From: Cheilinus undulatus
Lineage: Eukaryota; Chordata; Actinopteri; Labriformes; Labridae
Length of the DNA: 64,000 nt
Assembly: GCF_018320785.1 (NCBI RefSeq)
Contig: NC_054877.1
Coordinates: forward strand, 21,992,329-22,056,328
Direction: 5' to 3'
The position numbers and the translations under genes are program-made. Under the pieces are notes generated by a model. That model saw only the letters and a list, made by a program, of their open reading frames with translations. It was not told the origin of the DNA and did no database searches. Shown piece by piece: positions 7,718-63,619 of the stretch (within the stretch, counting starts at the first letter, position 1; every line of letters starts with the position of its first letter).

Positions 7718-9010
7718 AGCTGGGCATATGCTGTGCGAATTTCATCCGATTCAGCCACGAATTTTGAGTCACGACTCACTTGGAAGTTGTACCTACTTTC
7801 AGGCCTTGTCCACACGGAGACTAAAACGATATACTTCCGTTTCATTTTGAAAAAGTTTTTCATAAATACGGGATCGTTTCAGTAAATGACTGCGTAAGAA
7901 TAGAACCACTGAAAACGCTGTAGTATATTTGCCAAGCCTGTAAGTGGCGCTGTGACGCTTCCACAGAAATGCACCAAAAGAGAGAAGAAGATTACAGAAA
8001 ACTGACACAAACTTTCTCCAGGTTGCCCTTCTGGTTGTTCTCTGCAGTGGATTTAAGAACATCTGGTGTATGCTGTTCTCGGTGGTGGCAAAGGAGCATC
8101 AGATTTTACTGTTAAAGCCATAATAAGCCCAATAGTTTCTGCAGCACGAAAACCCTGTAATCCGCCATTGTTGTCTTGGTTCGACTCATGCATGCTGTTT
8201 AGGTGGGCTATGCTTTGTATGACGTAATTGTTTTAAGAAAAATGCAGTTGGCTGTCCACACAGTGATGAAACAGTAAGCATTTACAGATTTGTTCACTCT
8301 GGGACCTGGTTTCAAAAAGTAGCATTTATAGCCTCCTAAAATGCAGTTTCTGTGTGGATGAAACACCAATACGACAAATAACTTTTGCGTATACTCCTGA
8401 AGTCGTCTTCTCAGTCCGATTAGGCATCGTTTGTCATGCTGTGTACAGGGGGACATAACGGCCCCATCACAGCCCGACCAGCTGCCCCCGACTTGTTACA
8501 TGGATTTCTGACATGTTTGATATTTTAGTTGTACGACTCCAGACACTCCTACAGTCAGAGCAGAAACACAAGCAGAATAAACATGTGGGGAATTTTTTTC
8601 TTTTGTAAACTGTCAGACTAATTCTAAATTATTATGACAACAGCTAGAAGGACTTTCTCATGCCCATCCAGCCCCGCTATGATAACGGAAATAAGCAAGC
8701 AGGAAATAACACTCGCTACTGCAGCTGACACAGATGGTGATGCTGTTTGTGTGTGTGGGATAGAGAGAGAAAGCCAGAGAGAGAGACAGAGAGGATGTGA
8801 CTGGAAACACTTCATCCTCAGTGTGTGAGACTTTTTAAAAAGGAAACTGGAGATTTCTGTCACAGTCTGACCCGACTTCGTATAGTGTGAGCTCATAAAT
8901 TGTGCGCAATGGGCGTGCATCGTAAGCGATTCAGACGCACAGTATGAGTTGACATTCTGCCATGACTGTCGTATGGTCAGCTTGAAATCGTAGAGTGTAT
9001 GCCCAGCTTA
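7718..9010. mobile_element. Non-autonomous inverted-repeat element with an inner element
   Basis: The left end reads aagctgggcatatgctgtgc. The right end, read on the other strand, gives taagctgggcatacactcta, so the two are terminal inverted repeats. No transposase frame is visible. A second repeat begins inside at about 7801 (ggccttgtccacacggagac), with related text at about 8240-8370 (tgtccacacagtgatgaaac, ctgtgtggatgaaac). That suggests one element inserted in another. The target duplication is unclear. Confidence 0.6.
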
Positions 9011-17945: not shown

Positions 17946-18540
17946 CAGTGCCTATAAAAAGCATTCACCCCCTTGGATGTTTTATGGTTTCATTCATATA
18001 TGATCAATCATGGTCAATATGATTGGCTTTTTTGACAAAAAAAAAAAAAAAAAAAAAAAAAAACGTGTAAAAAAATCTTTTTAAAGGCAAAGTGAAAAAC
18101 AGACTTCAACAAAGTAATGTCAATTAAATACAGATATTTAATGTAAGTTTGTGACAGCTTAAACATTCACCCCCTTTAAAGTGACTGACCTGATTCAGCA
18201 GAGGTCCAGCCAATTGGTGCCAGGAGTCTCACAATTAGGGAAATGGGGATTATGTGAGTGCAGTGAAAGTGTCTCAAGTGATTGTAGTATAAAAACACCC
18301 GTGTCTGGAAGGTCCATTCACTGGTTGAATCAGTATTCATGGGTACAATTACACCATGAAGACAAAAGAACACTCCAAGCAATTCAGAGAAAAGGTTATT
18401 GAGACATGTAAGTGAGAGGATGGATACATTTGAATGGATACACAAGTTTTTTTGTCAAAAAATCTAAATGATATTGACCGTGACTGCTTTATAGAATTAA
18501 TAAAAGGGTAAAACATGGTGAACACTTTTTACAGGTACTG
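17946..18540. mobile_element. Short Tc1-like derivative (family 1), abutting
   Basis: It starts cagtgcctataaaaagcatt and ends aacactttttacaggtactg, about 595 bp, so it is internally deleted. An A run of about 26 lies at 18038-18063. It shares a single TA (17944-17945) with the neighbouring Tc1 element. The stretch at 18206-18216 preserves the uninterrupted form of the site into which the element at 48072 inserted. Confidence 0.85.
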
Positions 18541-47720: not shown

Positions 47721-48071
47721 TACATATCATAATTAGCCTCGAGTTATTCAGCACCATTTCATTCTAAGGGAAACTGTGCTGTGCTGACAAAGCTGTAACA
47801 AGCTCAGTGTTTGTTAGCTTAACTGTAGAACTGATTGAGCCAATCGTACACCAACACTGGGAAAACAAATCTGGCTCCCACCCAGTGTTTGGGACGTAGT
47901 GACATTAATCTGGCTATGGGAGTAAACTGAGCAGCAAAATAAACTATTTTAACATACTTTTTCCGTGAAGAGTTAAACTGTTATTTAAAAGGATGAGATT
48001 GTTTGAAAGTTCAGAAAGTCAATGAAACCTTTAAAGTGACTGACCTAATTCAAAAGAGGTCCAACTAATTG

Positions 48072-48630
48072 AAAACCTTGCAAAGCAGATGGAGATGCCC
48101 ATTTCTGTGTTTCTCACTGGCAAATCCATCTTGCAAAGCTTCCATCTGAACTGTTTGGGCCCGGTTAGAAAGTGAGAGGACCAATCAGCGCTGAGGGGCA
48201 GTACTTTCTGGCACTGCGGAGTCGTGACGTAAGCAAGCAACAACAAGAGGCCGGTGCAATTATGGCAGAAGAGCTTAGCATAGATGCTGCTGAAGCACCA
48301 ATTTTATCAGAACTTGATGACATTTCTTTGTTAAAAGAAGAACAAAGAACAGCAGTGAGTTGTTTTCTCTTTTCAAAAACGACAAAAGTCATGTACTGAC
48401 ATGTCTACAGTCGCCATGGTTCACGTTATTCCTCGGTAACTGTGCACACGCACCTTGGTCGCGGCTACGTCACATGTTCTTTTGCTCTGATTTCAGCCTG
48501 AAGATGTGACAGACAGAATGTTCATGCAATCACACTGAGTTTTTTCAAATCCTCTGCCCTTTCCCAAATGCTTAGTTTTGAAGGTTTTCCAGATTCATGT
48601 GTGAAACAAATCCATCTGGTGTGTCAGGTT
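48072..48630 (+). mobile_element. Pack-type inverted-repeat transposon carrying a RecQ-like helicase gene start
   Basis: The left end is aaaaccttgcaaagcagatg and the right end, on the other strand, aacctgacacaccagatgga; 16 of 20 bases agree. AACTAATTG flanks it on both sides (48063-48071 and 48631-48639), and the Tc1 host reads through in a related copy at 18206-18216. Inside are a sub-terminal inverted copy of the end (about 48127), a CCAAT box (48181-48185), TGACGTAA (48225-48232), an ATG at 48262 and a frame MAEELSIDAAEAPILSELDD then SLLKEEQRTA up to a possible donor GTGAGT at 48355. No transposase is present, so it must have moved in trans. The 9-bp duplication suits Mutator-like elements; this is inference. 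Confidence 0.75.
48262..48399 (+). pseudogene. RecQ-like helicase N-terminal gene fragment carried by the transposon
   Basis: The frame covers about 45 residues ending in LKEEQRTAV, which in RecQ-like helicases precedes the ATP-binding motif. The copy at 60293-60373 continues into [10 protein letters not shown], which identifies it. If the donor at 48355 is used the first exon would be spliced to something outside the element. Nothing here can make a helicase. Confidence 0.5.
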
Positions 48631-49304
48631 AACTAATTGATGCTAGTAGTCTCTCAATTAGTGAAATGGGGATCACTTGAGTGCAGTGAATGTGTTTCAA
48701 GTGATTGTAGTATAAAGACACCTGTGTCTGGAAGGTCCAGTCACTGGACAATTGTATTCCTGGCTACCATTACACTATGAAAACAAAAGAACACTCCAAG
48801 CAACTCAGAGAATATGTTATTGAAAAGTATAAGTCAGGGGATGGTTACAAAAAAAATCCAAAGCAGTGAACATCCCCCAGAGTTCAGTTAAATTCTTCAT
48901 CAAGAAACAGAGGGAAAATATCACATGTGTAACTCTGCTTAGACCAGGCCATCCTCACAAACTGAAGGACCGTGCAAAAATGAGACTAGTGAGAGAGGCC
49001 ACTAAGACACCTATGACTACGCTAAAGGAGTTACAAGTTTAACAGCTGAAATGGAAGAGACTGCATACAACAACTGCTGCCTGGGTTTTTCACCGTCAAA
49101 GCACTATGGGAGAGTAGCAACATGAAAGCCACTGTTGAAGAAAACTCATGATAAATTTTGATTTGAGTTCACCAAAAGGCATGTGGGAAACTCCATGGTC
49201 AAGTGGAAGAAAGTTCTTTGGTCTGTTGAGACTAAAATGTTTTGGTGGACACCAAACATAGCCTCTGACTTTATAGTCATAGAAACAGTCTTACTCATTT
49301 GTTA

Positions 49305-50773: not shown

Positions 50774-52194
50774 CTACACTGACACATCTGCAACAGCTGC
50801 CACGGCCTCAATTTGAATCCCTGTAACCCCCGCATCCTCTTCCTCATCCTCTTCACCCACCGTGGGCACGAAGGATGAAGGCAGGCATGTTGCTTGGCTG
50901 TTGCTGCTGTTGGCTGTGTTCATCTGCATGCTGCTTCCCATGCTGGCATAAGCAGCTATGCTAGCGGCCGAGGAGACGCTCCCCAGTTTGGTCGGGACGC
51001 TGGTCTTGCCACAGGAATGGATCCGCCGCGCAAGACTGGCAGAACGCACCACTGAGGAAGTGGTTACAGTGCCCACGCCCTGAACCTTCCCCTCCAGAAA
51101 GTAGGTCAGCATTTCACCTTTGCCCTTGACGCTGACTTTGCCACGGCATACCAGGTCGTAGTTGGTATTCAGCAGGCGGTAGACCTCTTCAGTCACCTGT
51201 ATCAAGAGCGAGGAAATATTTTTTGTAAAGGTGTAAACGGTGAGTTCCCTAACAAAACTCAGTGTAACATCTAATAAAAATCATTTTTACTGTTTGGTTG
51301 TTCGTAGTATGAAACACCAGATAGACTCACATACAGTAGATAGACATGCATTTGTCCAATGCATGGATATCTTGCACATCAATCTGTGCAACAGTCCATA
51401 GTCTGTGTTTTAGAAGGTCAGAACTTTTGAAAAAAATATTGAAGGGTGATTGGACGAACGCTATGGATGGAGATAGTTCATTTTTATTGATACTGATACC
51501 CTTATCAATACTCCTTATTGATCTGTATCCTTATTGATTCTACCATTGATACTTTTCTATGGTTTGGTGGAAAGACAAAATGATGACAATAAATTTACAA
51601 TAGAACTTCACCTTACAAGGCTAACTGACCAGACTCCATCTCTGTCATCAGGCAAATCCATCTTGAAAAGCTCCAATCCATGATTTTCACCCTTCTGCCA
51701 ACCTGCCTCAGCATGAGTTAGTGATCATTACAGGTGGGCGGTTGTAGTGTGGATCTGTATAACAATGGCAGCTTGTGGAGTCATTTGTTTGGATGCGGCT
51801 TTAGTGTGGCAGCAGTATTATCAGAACTGGCCCACATTTCTTTTTTAAAACAAAAGCAAAGAGTCATACTGTAGGCTCCACTTGGGGAATTCAACGTTTT
51901 TACTTTTCTCTCAATGTGCCTCGGCATACGTTTTATCCACACCATGCTGTATTAATGTATGTATGAATTTTTGTGTATTTAAAAAAAGAAAACAGAACGG
52001 GGTCTTTAGGGCACCTGGGTCACTTGGGTGACTGTGGCACAGAGTAAGATGTTTCATGGTCGGTAGTTTGTGGGTTTGATCTCTTGTCTTTTGTTTGGGT
52101 TTGTTGCTTTGTTCCTCTGTTTGCTTCTGTACATGTCAAAGCACTTTGTAAACCCATGTTTTTAAAAGTGCTATACAAACAAAGTTGTTATTAT

Positions 52195-52231
<37 letters not shown>

Positions 52232-55200
52232 TCTGACTGATAGAACCCAGGTTGTTCAATTAGAAGGTGTTACCTCTAAGGTACTAAGAATTGAGAAGGG
52301 GTGCCTCAGGGGTCTGTACTGGGCCCCCTGTTGTTTACTGTAAAAATTGGCTTGGACAGAATGTTACCAATTCCTCGCTTCATTTTTATGCTGACAGTAC
52401 TGTTATCTACAGCTGTGCACTTACGCCTGCACAACCTTTGCAAATCTTCAGCACGCTTTTGATCTAGTCAAAGATCAGCTTAGCCAGCTGCAGCTTGCCC
52501 TAAATGCAGATAAAACTAAACTCTTGTTCTTTACAGGGCTGGATTGGCTATATGGCATACCGGGCAAATGCCTGGTGGGCCAATGTACTGTGGGGACTGT
52601 ATGATCTATTTCTTTTGTTTTTTTGCTAAGCACTAGCCCATAGAGTAGGGGCCAAGGAGCCCATTGGCTGTTTACTTTATATTGACAGTTTACTGGCCCA
52701 ATCACCTGTCCTTAAGGTCAGTTTAACCTTTACATCCCCAAGAGCAGCTAAAAGAACACTGAATGGGAAAATTGCTACAAAGAACAATCAAGAAATTGAG
52801 CTGGTATCGTCCTTGAAATATCTAGGCGTTTTGCTTGATGAAAACTTGTCTTTTAAGGAGCACATTAAGTTTGTTGCAAAAAAGCTGAAAGTTTTACTTG
52901 GTTTTACTACTATGTTTTGTAGATAAATGCTTCTGCTCAGAGTCTTCATGTGTTGGACAATGTGTATCGTGGCGCTCTAAAATTTATCACTAACTGTGGA
53001 TATTTTACTCACCACTTTACTTTCTATTCTAAGGTCAACTTGACTTCTTTGAGTACACATTGTCTTGGACATTGGTACATCTTCATTTATAAAACCATTC
53101 TTGTCAAAAACTTTGGATTACCTTTCCTCTCTTTTGATCTTGAAGGATGGATTGCTCAACCTGCTTCATTTGATTTTGTGGAGGTTGTCGTTCCCAAAGT
53201 CCAAACTGAGTTGGGAAAGCAGGCTTTCAGGTTTTCTGCTCCTTTTGCGTGGAACAGTCTGCAGACTGGATTTAAACTGCAGAACCTGGTGGCTCTGAAT
53301 ATTTTCAAACCTTTAGTGAAAACTCTTGAAACCAAACTGTCTGTATGCCTCTGTTTTAGCTGATGTTTATTACTGTATTTATTGTTTATTTTGAAATGTG
53401 CGAGTTTGAGTGTGTTTGATATTTGAAACTGTATTGCTGCCATTCTTGTCCAGGCCTCCCTTGAAAATGAGATCTTTGATCTCAATGGGACTAACCTGGT
53501 TAAATAAAGCTTACATAAATAAAAAAAAAAAGTCTACCTTGAAAAACTTACAATGTGTTTATTTTCTTTTCTTTTCTTTTAATACAAAAACATCAACTTC
53601 CACTGGTGCATCTAAGCTAGTCTCTTCACCAGCAGCCATTGTTTACCGGCTTGAAGTACAACTTAACCTGCCTAGTTCACCTAAAGTGGCACAGATTGGC
53701 CCATCTATGACCTGTCACAAATGTTTCAGACTTGGAGCTTTGCTAGATGGATCTGCCTGATGATGGACATGGAATCTGACCAATTTATTGGCTTTGCAAG
53801 GTTAGTCCATTTAAATGGCTTTTTAACCTTGAATTCAAGCCCCAAATTGAAAATTCATCATACATTTAGTTACCATGCTTTGGAGTGCTATTCTGCTTCT
53901 TCTTCTTTTTTTTTTTGGCATAAAAATAGCCAATGTTCCAGCATTCATCTCTGTTACAGTAAACTGGAAAACACTGCAAAGTCGAAAATCTGCTGAAGGC
54001 CCTACATTTGTGCCAAAGCAAAGAGGATATGGCCAAAGGGTCAGAGCAGGTGATTCATGTTATCAAGGTCAACTAAATGAAAGTTTGAAGAGGACACCAC
54101 TGAAAAAAAGGTCAGTTCAGGACTTGATTGACTAATTCAGCCTTTGAAACTTAAGTTTTGATTTTTTTAAGATTCTTTTTTCCTTCAAGCTTTTAAGAAA
54201 ATGAACTTTGTGTGTTTTCTACCTGTATTTTCCCTGGTACTCCAGTGCTGTCCATCCTGCTGGCCACATTGACTGTGTTTCCCCAGATGTCATACTGAGG
54301 TCGCCGTGCCCCGATCACCCCTGCAACCACTGGACCCACATTGATGCCTACATACACACACAAAAAAAGTTAAACAAATAAAAAACAATAAATAACAAAC
54401 TTTGCTTTTCACCATCACATTTTGATTTGATTTGTGGTTTGCTCAGTTTGATTACATGGATATACTCACCCACTCTCAAAACAAACTCATTGTATGACTG
54501 ATAGTTGATTTCATCTAAAACATCAAACATCTCGATGGCGTAGTCTGCTATTGTGCTCAGATGGTCGTAAACAGATTTTTTGGCCTATAGGGAAGAGTTC
54601 ACCAAATCAGTTGTCATGTTTTCTTCATAATAATGCACTAAATGCTTTTATAAGTGCACAACAAAAGGAAAACAAAGGATCAAAGGATATTTTACCTTGG
54701 TACCAATGGTGGGGACAAGACCCACAGCTGCCATGTATGTGCTCCCGATAGTTTTTATTTTCTCTATGTCTCTGTAGCACTCCTTATCCATGAGCTGCAG
54801 TTACAGTACATACATTAAACACACAAAGCAACAAACTCTCCAGAGGTTAACGTTCAAAGTTAGAGAAAAAAAATCAGTTTTTACCTCGTCAAAATCAGCA
54901 ATGATCTCATTTAGGAGTCTTAGGCACTCCACTCCCATGTTGTTGCCGTCCAGTTCGATATAGAAGTCATTGAAGTTTGGGATCGAGGCAAACAGGACAC
55001 CCACTTGTGCATATGATTGATAATACAGATCCTAATGGGTACAAAAAAATCAAAAACAAGGTGTAAAATAGGTAAATTTACACTTTAATAAAATGTCAGA
55101 ATTTGAATTCTTCTGTCTGTTCATCTACCTGTTTGTCAGTCTGTCTGTCTGCCTGTCTATTACTGACGCTCACCATGTTCCTGGGGTTTGACAACAGGAA

Positions 55201-58200: not shown

Positions 58201-61200
58201 AAGCCTGGGCTACAGCGTAGATTAAGAGCACTATGAGAATGCAGAGAGCAGTTCGAATCTGAATAGTCAGGCACCCTGGAAAACACTGGAAGAAAAGTTG
58301 TAAAACAAAGAAAAGTTAGATTGAGAAGCATATTAAGAGACATTTTGTGTATTTTAATTGTTTATTTACAGGGTGATAACAACAGGATATTCATGGGCAG
58401 TTTTACAAGTATGGAAAGGAAGGCATCTACTTGGGACCCTGTGCAGTAAGGGGCCTCAAGGTATAGGCCAAGTTGTCATCAAATGTTAGGTACACATTAA
58501 CACTTAGGTTACAAATTATGATGAGGATTTAAGGTGTAAAAAAAATTGTGCCCAGAGTGCATGAAATAACATCAGTAGAGTTTATAGTTTAAAAGTTCAA
58601 GCTCCTAAAATAACAGTATGTCTCTACACCAAGCAAATCAAAACAAGTTAAATCTATATAGAAATATATAAATCCATAAAATCCATAAAAATAGTGGATT
58701 ATTCTGAGGTAAAATGGCAAAAAAAAAAAAAAAAAAAATTAAAAATTAAAAACCACTATCTGCAAAGACAGTGTCTGGGGTAGTATGCGGTAAGTAAAGA
58801 TCTTTTGCACACTGAGTCTGCAGCACCAGACAGAATGGCTTTGTGCTGTGAAGACAAACAACAGTTTGTGCTTCTTTCACTTCATAAACAAGGAAAAGAA
58901 ACACTTTATACTATTAGGTTATTGCACAAGCTCGAGCTTAAAGCTGGAGAGCAAGAGCGCAGATGTTTTTATTTCAGTGTTTTTGGTTAGGTGGTTATCT
59001 GTACAGATTTAGGCCTTAAACTGCAGAAGAGGATGAGGACCAGAGGTAAAGGAAATAATAATACTATGCATTTTGAGATTAAAGTCAAAATGATGGAGAA
59101 AAAAAGTCATAACGCAATAAAGTCAAAATTTCAGAATAAAGTTAAAACCTTGTTTCAAGGTTAAAGTCAAACTGTCATGAATAAAGTTAAATTTTTTAAG
59201 ACCAAAACAAAAAATACAATTTGGAGAAGAAAGTCACAGTTTAAAGAAAAACATTATTAGACCATAACAAAAAGTGTTACATTGGTGAACTTGTGAAACC
59301 ATACTTTAGAATTAGATTAAACAAAAGAGATTCTGTCTCTTTTAGGTCATGAACATAGTGTAGTTGTCTAAGATCCATCGTGTTTATTCTTTAATAAGCT
59401 TTTACTTAATTCTCAGAATTTAAACTTTATTCTCAAAGTGTACTGCATTATATTTCCTTCACCTCTAATCCTCTTCTATAGATAACTATTATGCCTTATG
59501 GTTGAAATACATTGCAAATACCTGCATACCTTGCAAAGCTGATGGATTGCCAGATTCCATGTCTGTAAGCAAAGTATAGATAACCTTGCAAAGCAGATGG
59601 AGACGCCCATTTCTGTATTTCTCACTGGCGAATCCATCTTGCAAAGCTCCTGTCTGAACCATTTGGGCACGGTTAGAAAGTGACAGGACCAATTAACGAC
59701 AAGGGGCAGTACTTTCTGGCATGGCGGAGTCCGGACTTATGCAAGCAGCAACAGGAGGCCAGTGCAATTTTGGCAGCAGAGATTATCGTGGATGCTGCTA
59801 AAGCCCCAGTTTTATCAGAACTTGATGACATTTATTCATTAAAGGAAGAACAAGAACAGCACTGACTTGTTTTCTTTTCAAAAACGACAAAAGTCGTGTA
59901 CTGACATGTCTACAGTCACCATGGTTTGCGTTATGCAGTTCCCTATGAAGTTTACTCCTTCAGTAGGGACGCAGCTTGATAGTGGATACATCACGTGTTT
60001 TGATGCTCTGATTGGCCTGTAAAAATGTGACAGACAGAATGTTTATCCGATCACACTCCAAGTTTATTTTTTTTTTCTCAAAGGTTCTGCCCTTTCCCAA
60101 ACGCTGTGTATAAAAGGTTTACCGGATGGATGTATGAAACAAATTCATCTGGTTTGCCAGGTTAGGTTATTGAATGATCTGACAAATCAGCATCTCTTAG
60201 AAAAAGCAAGGCAGTAACTATGGTTGGGTTTAGCTGTACTGTAAGCTGGTACACAATGGCTGCCCGTGGAGCAATTTGCTCAGAGCTGGACGTTACAAGA
60301 AGAGCAAACATCTGCACTAAAAGTTTTATACACAGAAAAGATGGATGTTTTTGCTCTTCTTCCAACCGGTTTCAGCCTGAGTTTGTTTCCCCAACTGGCG
60401 TCACTAATAGTTGGCAATGATAGCAACTACTGTGCAGAGTTCACTCCAGACCTGTGCATGCCTGCTATGTCATATGACTTGTTGCTCTGAATGTTCTATA
60501 ATGAATGAGACAGACAAAACATTTGTCCAATCACCCCCAAGGATTTTTCCTCACAAGCACACTATTGGCAGTTGCCAGATGGATGTGAGACAAATTCCAT
60601 GCAATAGATATGGGAAACAGTCTATTTTGCATGTAAGGTTATGAAATTCACAGAATGGGCACAACTTGGTGTTTCAGGTGAGGTTGGGAGGTTGAGAAAG
60701 GGAGCTGCAGTTGCTACTCTGAATAGTCAACCATTTAGATGACTTGCACGAATGTGAAAAAAAATTGTGCAAAAGTTTTGGATAAATAAATTTTGGATAA
60801 ATAAAACAGACTCAGTGTGCAAAAGCCTTTAAAAAAGAAAGACATAGTTCATAAGCCCGTAAGAGCCACAGGGTGTGAATTGATGTGGTCAGGAAAATTG
60901 ATGAAGACCATAAACCTCAGCATAAGCTGGAATGAATAAGTAGCTGAGTTTAAATGCTGCAGCAGGGCTTTAAATTAATCTTCCAACCAAGGAATGAGAA
61001 ATGTTCATTGCAGGGCTTTTCTAAGAACATTTACATATTCCCTTTAAGTCAGCAAAAATAAAAAAGGACCATAGCAGGGTAAAAATAAATGAGAAAGCCT
61101 AATTTTTCAGTAACAGAACTGATGAAATTAAGGGTGTGAATCAAAAGTAGGGTAAGGTTAAGAAAGCAGCTGTGTTTACCTGTACTCTAGTTATATGCAG

Positions 61201-62697: not shown

Positions 62698-63619
62698 CAG
62701 TGTCAATGAAAAGTATTCACCCCTTTGAATATTTTTTCCTTTTTATTTATTGTATAAATCATTCAGGGTCAATATGATTTGGCTTTTTTGACAAAAAGTG
62801 AAAACAGATCTCTACAAAGTAATGTCAAATAAAGAAAAATCTGTAATGTTGAATAAGTGACTGCATGAATATTCACACCCACCAAGTCAGTATTTAATAG
62901 ATGCATCTTTGGCTGAAATCACAGCACTGAGTCTGTGCTGATAGGTCCCAGACCGGACTTGAACAGCTCTTTTCAAGTTCAGCAACAAATTCTGTTTTGG
63001 ATTGAGGTCTGGGCTTTGACTCCAGAACATTCACCTTGTCATCTTTAAGCAATTTCTGTGTAGCTTTCCCTGTATGTTTCAAGTAATTGTCTTACTGTAA
63101 AATAAATCTCCTCCTGAGCCGTAGTTCTCTTCCAGACTGAAAAAGATGTTCAGTGCTTTGGAGATTTTTTCGTAACCATCCCCTGACTTATACTTTTCAA
63201 TAACATTTTCTCTGAGTTACCTGGAGTGTTCTTTTGTCTTCATGGTGTAATGGTAGCCAGGAATACTGATTAACCAGTGACTGGACGTTCCAGAAACAGG
63301 TGTCTTTATATCACAATCACTTAAGGGACAGCACTGCACTCAGGTGATCCCCATCTCACTAACTGTGAGACTTCTAGCTCTAATTGGCAGGACCTCTGTT
63401 GGATTAAGGGGGTGAATATTTTTACAGTCACTTATTTTACATGACCTATTTTTATTTAATTGACATTACTTTATAGAAATCTGTTTTCACTTTGACATTA
63501 AGGGTTTTCTTTGGTATTTTTTCTTGTCAAAAAGCCAAACTATATTAACCATGATTAGTTCATAAAATCAATAAAAAGGAAAAACATCCAAGGGGGTGAA
63601 TACTCTTTTCCAGGCACTG
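62698..63619 (-). mobile_element. Tc1-like transposon (family 1), internally deleted
   Basis: The ends are cagtgtcaatgaaaagtatt and, at the right, gggtgaatactcttttccag then gcactg. At about 922 bp it is shorter than a full Tc1 element. Minus-strand remnants include the N-terminal text near 63240 and a frame at 62894-63082. It lies in an adcy1 intron. Confidence 0.85.

Follow-up and report, generated by a model that had tools for sequence, protein, structure and literature searches.

A 559-bp transposon family of Cheilinus undulatus derived by internal deletion from a DNA transposon with a helicase gene, a probable AcademH element

Several DNA transposons are accompanied by shorter relatives that have lost their interior; Ds of Ac and KP of P are internal-deletion derivatives of this type, and such derivatives amplify in trans. 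Target-site duplications of a fixed length, together with terminal inverted repeats, are the mark of integration at staggered cuts by a transposase that the element encodes.

AcademH elements are described as making target-site duplications of 9 or 10 bp and AcademX elements duplications of 3 or 4 bp, lengths that the same source ties to the encoded helicase and nuclease (PMC10045372); that AcademH occurs in animals and fungi is stated by the title of Kojima 2020, as cited there. Academ elements are reported at low copy in zebrafish, medaka and stickleback (PMC4746887). The catalogue of Pack-TIRs in animals counts 370, of which 8 are in zebrafish (PMC8277862), and, for vertebrate elements carrying the MuDR label, it has been argued that they have no MULE transposase and should be evaluated anew (PMC6446971).

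The locus described here lies in a window of 64,000 nucleotides (C13:21992329-22056328 of the 1.17-Gb assembly), which had been given a sequence-only reading as holding a 559-bp transposon of Pack type, that is, a Mutator-like element carrying a promoter-like segment and the first coding piece of a RecQ-like helicase gene. The features of the insertion are as follows.

48073-48631, plus strand: non-autonomous 559-bp transposon copy, an internal-deletion derivative (40-copy boundary model; empty site)
48064-48072, no strand: left target-site duplication, ACTAATTGA (flank comparison)
48632-48640, no strand: right target-site duplication, ACTAATTGA (flank comparison)
48073-48092, plus strand: left terminal inverted repeat, AAACCTTGCAAAGCAGATGG; family form TAACCTTGCAAAGCAGATGG
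48612-48631, minus strand: right terminal inverted repeat, reading TAACCTGACACACCAGATGG on that strand
18173-18277, plus strand: host site without the insertion, in a related Tc1-like copy (joined-flank alignment)

The boundaries rest on a scan of duplication length against boundary position over 40 copies, i.e., the window copy and 39 others. The best full unit is a 9-bp duplication with termini T/AACC...GGTT/A, at 86% identity over the 40 copies; 6- to 8-bp sub-windows of the same 9 bp reach up to 87%, and 10-bp frames reach 80%. Duplications were counted in 39 copies, one of the 40 (L041) being dropped because its left end falls outside its alignment. All nine bases match in 17 copies, eight in 12, seven in 4 and fewer in 6, such that at least seven of the nine duplicated bases are kept in 33 of the 39; as a control, left and right flanks taken from different copies match at a mean of 2.5 of 9 (n = 1,482 pairs). 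The duplicated 9 bp are mildly A/T-rich and have no fixed motif. The joined flanks of the element align gap-free to 18173-18277 (86%) and also to 63406-63332 (83%). The related Tc1-like copies at 18173-18277, 48024-48700 and 63332-63406, one of which received the insertion, should be useful for dating it.

In total, the boundary model and the empty site bear out the original claims of a 559-bp length, a 9-bp duplication, inverted ends and an uninterrupted site in a Tc1 relative, and the boundaries are indeed shared across copies, with duplications that are not of random length. Two details shift. The duplication had been written as AACTAATTG, which is one base off ACTAATTGA, the framing given by many copies; the two framings are equivalent in the window copy because its terminal A is a repeat of the flanking base. 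The ends had been said to agree at 16 of 20 positions and agree at 15 of 20, ungapped, in the T/AACC framing, and their description as imperfect inverted repeats stands. These observations also bear on the idea that the segment is a fragment of a longer retroelement: common boundaries, fixed-length duplications in 33 of 39 copies and inverted ends all argue against it, and none of ten scanned ORF pieces of the long form described below matched a reverse transcriptase. Nothing was found in favour of a retroelement origin; we give it practically no chance, and it was rejected on the boundaries and duplications.

How common is the short form? The exact left end (a 23-base pattern) occurs 5,148 times in the genome and the exact right end (19 bases, with two-fold ambiguity at two positions) 5,227 times, with no occurrence of either pattern in the reversed control; these counts should understate the total because copies have diverged. 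A DNA search with the element gave 10,200 first-look candidates, and all 40 that were scored match; 39 of them cover nearly the whole element, and one begins at query position 45. The 39 copies differ from their own consensus by a mean of 7.1% (range, 5.4 to 9.0), or 4.4% outside CpG, values that describe copies picked by similarity to the window copy rather than a random sample. Pairing of exact ends on C1, with 100 left and 98 right ends among the first listed places (at least one listed right-end place, near no left end, was left out), yielded 13 pairs of 520 to 564 bp, single pairs of 71, 183 and 1,362 bp, and three pairs of 7 to 9.4 kb, against a chance expectation (by arithmetic) of about 2.7 end pairs within 12 kb. 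None of the three pairs of 7 to 9.4 kb lies at a place found by DNA search with the helicase or DUF6589 gene, among the matches listed. The pairs of 183, 71 and 1,362 bp with exact ends, at C1 6961217, 17465969 and 3107171, hint at additional classes of deletion or insertion. The short family shows the features of a MITE, being high in copy number, devoid of any complete gene and equipped with both ends of a longer coding element.

That longer element was found on C14. It is 8,995 bp long (C14:1079324-1088318, minus strand), has the same ends as the 559-bp element and is flanked by AAAACCAGC and AAAACCAGA, which are identical at 8 of 9 positions and represent its own 9-bp duplication. The stretch fetched for it (L076, C14:1079000-1088900) carries sequence from each end of the short element, separated by 9 kb, with element positions 2-298 matched on one side and positions 293-356 and 395-559 on the other. 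Bases 2-298 of the window copy are 82% identical to the long element. The consensus of the 39 short copies aligns gap-free at 86% over positions 1-296 of both, and its positions 291-560 align, with gaps, to the last 303 bp of the long element at 76%. At the join, the two alignments overlap by six bases, TTTTCT, a microhomology.

48365-48370, no strand: deletion junction, six bases aligning with both sides of the approximately 8.4 kb of lost interior (long element 2-298 = 48074-48370; long element 8693-8995 = 48365-48631)

The short element thus consists of the first ~296 bp and the last ~303 bp of the long form, i.e., it is an internal-deletion derivative (MITE). With identities of 86% on the left and 76% on the right, the C14 copy is a cousin of the short family and not its direct parent. 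It has stops and frameshifts in both of its genes, and since no other near-complete long copy was found, the family is probably immobile today.

Each end also contains an internal inverted repeat (family form AGATGGAT...ATCCATCT), seen at 48087-48131 and 48589-48619 in the window and at 325-375 of L076; these repeats are possibly paired binding sites, a putative role. Folding of the subterminal hairpins gave z scores of -1.1 and -0.9 for the window copy, which are not significant, and -5.0, a strong fold, for the right end of the long copy.

The long copy carries two convergent genes, both of which read inward: a RecQ-family helicase gene starts near the left end and a DUF6589 gene near the right end, and the starts of both are kept in the short form.

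48262-48370, plus strand: beginning of the RecQ-family helicase gene of the parent, cut off by the deletion ahead of Walker A (alignment with the long element)
48373-48417, minus strand: start of the parent's DUF6589 gene, with ATG at 48417, 14 residues and a stop adjoining the junction (copy comparison)

The helicase start reads MAEELSIDAAEAPILSELDDISLLKEEQRTAV from 48262. Its 39-residue stretch matched no Pfam family, and the frame at 48262 is recognizable as a helicase start only by way of the long copy. Through the collinear C14 gene, the claim that a RecQ-like helicase gene start lies inside the element holds; the piece is not a complete first exon, as the deletion junction interrupts the helicase frame. 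Since the same start sits in the long element, what had been read as a promoter-like segment with a first coding piece is the start of a gene that belongs to the parent itself; the second gene start, that of DUF6589, sits at the other end of the short form. Upstream of both starts we spotted by eye putative CCAAT and TGACGTA-like motifs. The helicase ATG is intact in 34 of the 39 short copies, as is the DUF6589 ATG (34/39), and the 33-codon helicase frame is open in 24. Among the short copies no coding constraint on the gene start was detected: mutations fall 95, 68 and 95 by codon position, with no third-position excess.

The collinearity of the two forms decides what the helicase piece is. 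Gene capture was a reasonable idea, because animal inverted-repeat transposons are on record as capturing genes (PMC8277862), and the element does carry part of a gene, enclosed by short inverted ends, and has a 9-bp duplication; Pack-type inverted-repeat elements do exist in animals, according to the same source. A Pack-MULE would here be a Mutator-like element that had captured a host helicase gene's promoter together with its first exon. Against this, the fragment is collinear with the longer element's own gene from element base 1, and there is no capture boundary. A search of the genome with the TIGR00614 profile (102 candidates, 45 scored, 28 matches listed) produced no host donor of the kind proposed: among these RecQ loci, only the C14 transposon convincingly shares DNA with the short element (E 2e-82), and three overlapping loci on C21 have one 31-bp stretch in common with it (E 0.04), likely by chance.

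A 9-bp duplication, kept at seven or more positions in 33 of 39 copies, does fall within the 8 to 11 bp of MULEs; assignment to that class by the duplication alone was rejected, because AcademH also makes 9 or 10 bp (PMC10045372). The test for a MULE transposase rests on one model, the Pfam MULE domain PF10551, which had no match in the genome (six candidates scored) or among the scanned pieces of the long form; the model itself works, since a control matched in 3 of 14 prokaryote genomes. The longer same-ended copy that the sequence-only reading proposed to look for does exist, and instead of the MULE transposase expected in it, only helicase and DUF6589 domains were recognized at or near the Pfam cut-offs. 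What survives of the Pack-type reading is a DNA transposon family with common ends, 9-bp duplications and a helicase start; the gene-capturing MULE does not, capture being rejected because the C14 long copy carries the helicase as its own gene. We regard a Pack-MULE as very improbable.

Deletion, rather than capture, is also the origin that an older relative in the window points to. This relative and the other copies and fragments in the window are listed here.

59581-60164, plus strand: another full-length member of the short family (584 bp; identity to the consensus, 83%), inside an older relative
59527-60641, plus strand: older diverged relative, interrupted by the 59581-60164 copy
53704-53804, minus strand: left-end fragment of a diverged relative
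51610-51862, plus strand: left half of a diverged relative, in two aligned pieces (51610-51674 and 51783-51862)
51363-51465, minus strand: right-end piece of a diverged relative

The copy at 59581-60164 is older and stands outside the 39, and by eye its flanks keep only 5 of 9 duplicated bases. In the relative that it interrupts, 60346-60405 matches positions 300-359 of the long element (60 bp, 73%, E 9e-5); this relative has another deletion breakpoint, because its helicase stretch continues past that of the 559-bp family. Differing breakpoints fit a deletion origin, which predicts them, whereas a single gene capture does not. The right part of the same relative is also found elsewhere in the genome, at 68 to 79%. 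The fragments between 51363 and 53804 may belong to one longer relative on the minus strand that took up nested insertions. Roughly 52300-53500, between diverged fragments, looks LINE-derived by eye.

Both genes of the long element can be placed by their protein domains. Two pieces of the helicase match Pfam Helicase_C at 1.2e-12 and DEAD at 5.1e-5 (23.5 bits, below the cut-off of 26); with the helicase pieces joined, the best NCBIfam match is TIGR00614, the RecQ family, at 1.2e-34 (120 bits, below the curated cut-off of 219.8), and the nearest solved relatives are WRN structures. Pieces of this gene occur on C12 and C9 as well, among the matches listed in the DNA search. An unrelated repeat lies in the helicase intron of the C14 copy (L076 about 7900-8190; query about 790-1100) and accounts for the other matches among those listed (174 in all); the repeat looks palindromic, because several of its genomic copies match both strands at one place.

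The DUF6589 gene is multi-exon. With exons joined by eye, it matches its profile at 1.6e-35 over positions 16-377 of 410, and one exon alone gives 8.5e-15; its N-terminal part had no Pfam match. The PF20231 family search of the genome, in which two candidates were scored, matched at the C14 locus only, and DNA of the gene was found in two pieces on C7, three on C10 and one on C22. DUF6589 is named in Pfam as a family of unknown function and bears no transposase annotation in any result; a literature search for it found no paper, and no solved structure related by sequence was found. No relative was confirmed in viral contigs searched with the DUF6589 exon and with the helicase, or in bacterial and archaeal contigs searched with DUF6589. 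Between C7 and C14, dN/dS over the 227 codons compared in DUF6589 exon 2 comes to 0.81, against 0.71 and 0.76 in the wrong frames, and purifying selection on the gene is therefore unsupported. Two shorter comparisons, both without a wrong-frame control, gave 0.61 for exon 5 between C14 and C10 (57 codons only) and 0.54 for the helicase start between the consensus and C14 (33 codons only).

To which kind of transposon does the parent belong? By description it is probably of the AcademH kind: the 8,995-bp copy encodes a RecQ-family helicase and the duplication is 9 bp, a combination that, in an animal, makes AcademH the best fit. A different possibility is that the long element stands outside the described superfamilies, as a RecQ helicase and DUF6589 transposon that is AcademH-like only in its helicase and duplication length. 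The status of DUF6589 as a Pfam family of unknown function, with neither a paper nor a transposase annotation turned up by our searches, speaks for this; set against it, AcademH is a helicase-encoding group with 9- to 10-bp duplications in animals and fungi (PMC10045372), and Academ has been reported in teleosts (PMC4746887). We judge such a separate superfamily unlikely, at a level that still merits attention. A relative of the KolobokH type was weighed because KolobokH and Kolobok-1_CCri also encode RecQ helicases, with the helicase of Kolobok-1_CCri lying on the complementary strand (PMC9587614); that source, however, gives Kolobok TTAA duplications of 4 bp and 5'-RR...YY-3' ends, and the family here has 9-bp duplications of no fixed sequence, with ends TAACC...GGTTA and no TTAA duplication. 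A Kolobok affiliation is accordingly a poor prospect, with only a slight chance of being right.

We therefore return to the reading that we hold to be highly probable, that the 559-bp element is a miniature form: a ~9-kb cut-and-paste transposon, probably an AcademH element, lost its interior in a single deletion, and the product was then amplified to thousands of copies. In the mechanism we propose, a single deletion at the 6-bp microhomology would have joined both ends of the parent, and the short form would have spread to thousands of places. The DUF6589 protein, the candidate transposase because the only other gene recognized in the parent is a helicase, would bind the ends and make the 9-bp staggered cuts, and the helicase may assist replication or repair of the transposition intermediate. 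Both proteins would once have worked in trans on the short copies; these retain the ends and, for each of the two genes, the upstream region and the first codons, presumably to no function. As both gene starts and their upstream regions have been carried to so many places, the short form could seed cryptic promoters.

We also entertain, as a speculation that we think will probably fail, that DUF6589 is the catalytic transposase of a helicase-bearing lineage distinct from described Academ and behind part of the MULE-like or unclassified repeats of vertebrates that have 9-bp duplications. If so, GGDRLT, DWH and LEHLN of the C14 protein would hold the acidic catalytic positions, and a C2H2-like stretch would be an inserted zinc finger. 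The C10 copy reads GGE and DWQ where C14 has GGDRLT and DWH.

Based on the evidence described above, what was claimed as a gene-capturing MULE becomes an ordinary, well-supported deletion derivative with a named kind of parent. The parent is a concrete candidate for vertebrate repeats labelled MuDR that lack a MULE transposase (PMC6446971), and, with DUF6589 tied to a transposon of defined ends and duplication length, the suspected transposase role becomes directly testable.

Set beside known systems, the family is a new non-autonomous member of what is probably a known kind. It resembles deletion derivatives generally in its kept ends, lost interior and trans amplification, and differs in the gene content of its parent. 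With MULEs and Pack-MULEs it has in common the 9-bp duplication and non-autonomous copies that hold gene sequence; here, however, PF10551 is without a match and the gene sequence is the element's own. KolobokH and Kolobok-1_CCri are likewise DNA transposons with a RecQ helicase but have TTAA duplications and other termini, and KolobokH is reported only from fungi in the source cited (PMC9587614). The zebrafish Repbase elements MuDR-1_DR to -3_DR are, like this family, from a vertebrate and were assigned to MuDR with no recognizable MULE transposase (PMC6446971); a link to them is a suggestion, made by description rather than sequence. AcademH shares the helicase gene in the element, duplications of 9 or 10 bp and a reported presence in animals (PMC10045372), whereas the family here is set apart by a helicase and a DUF6589 gene that converge and by an abundant form that is a deletion derivative of ~560 bp.
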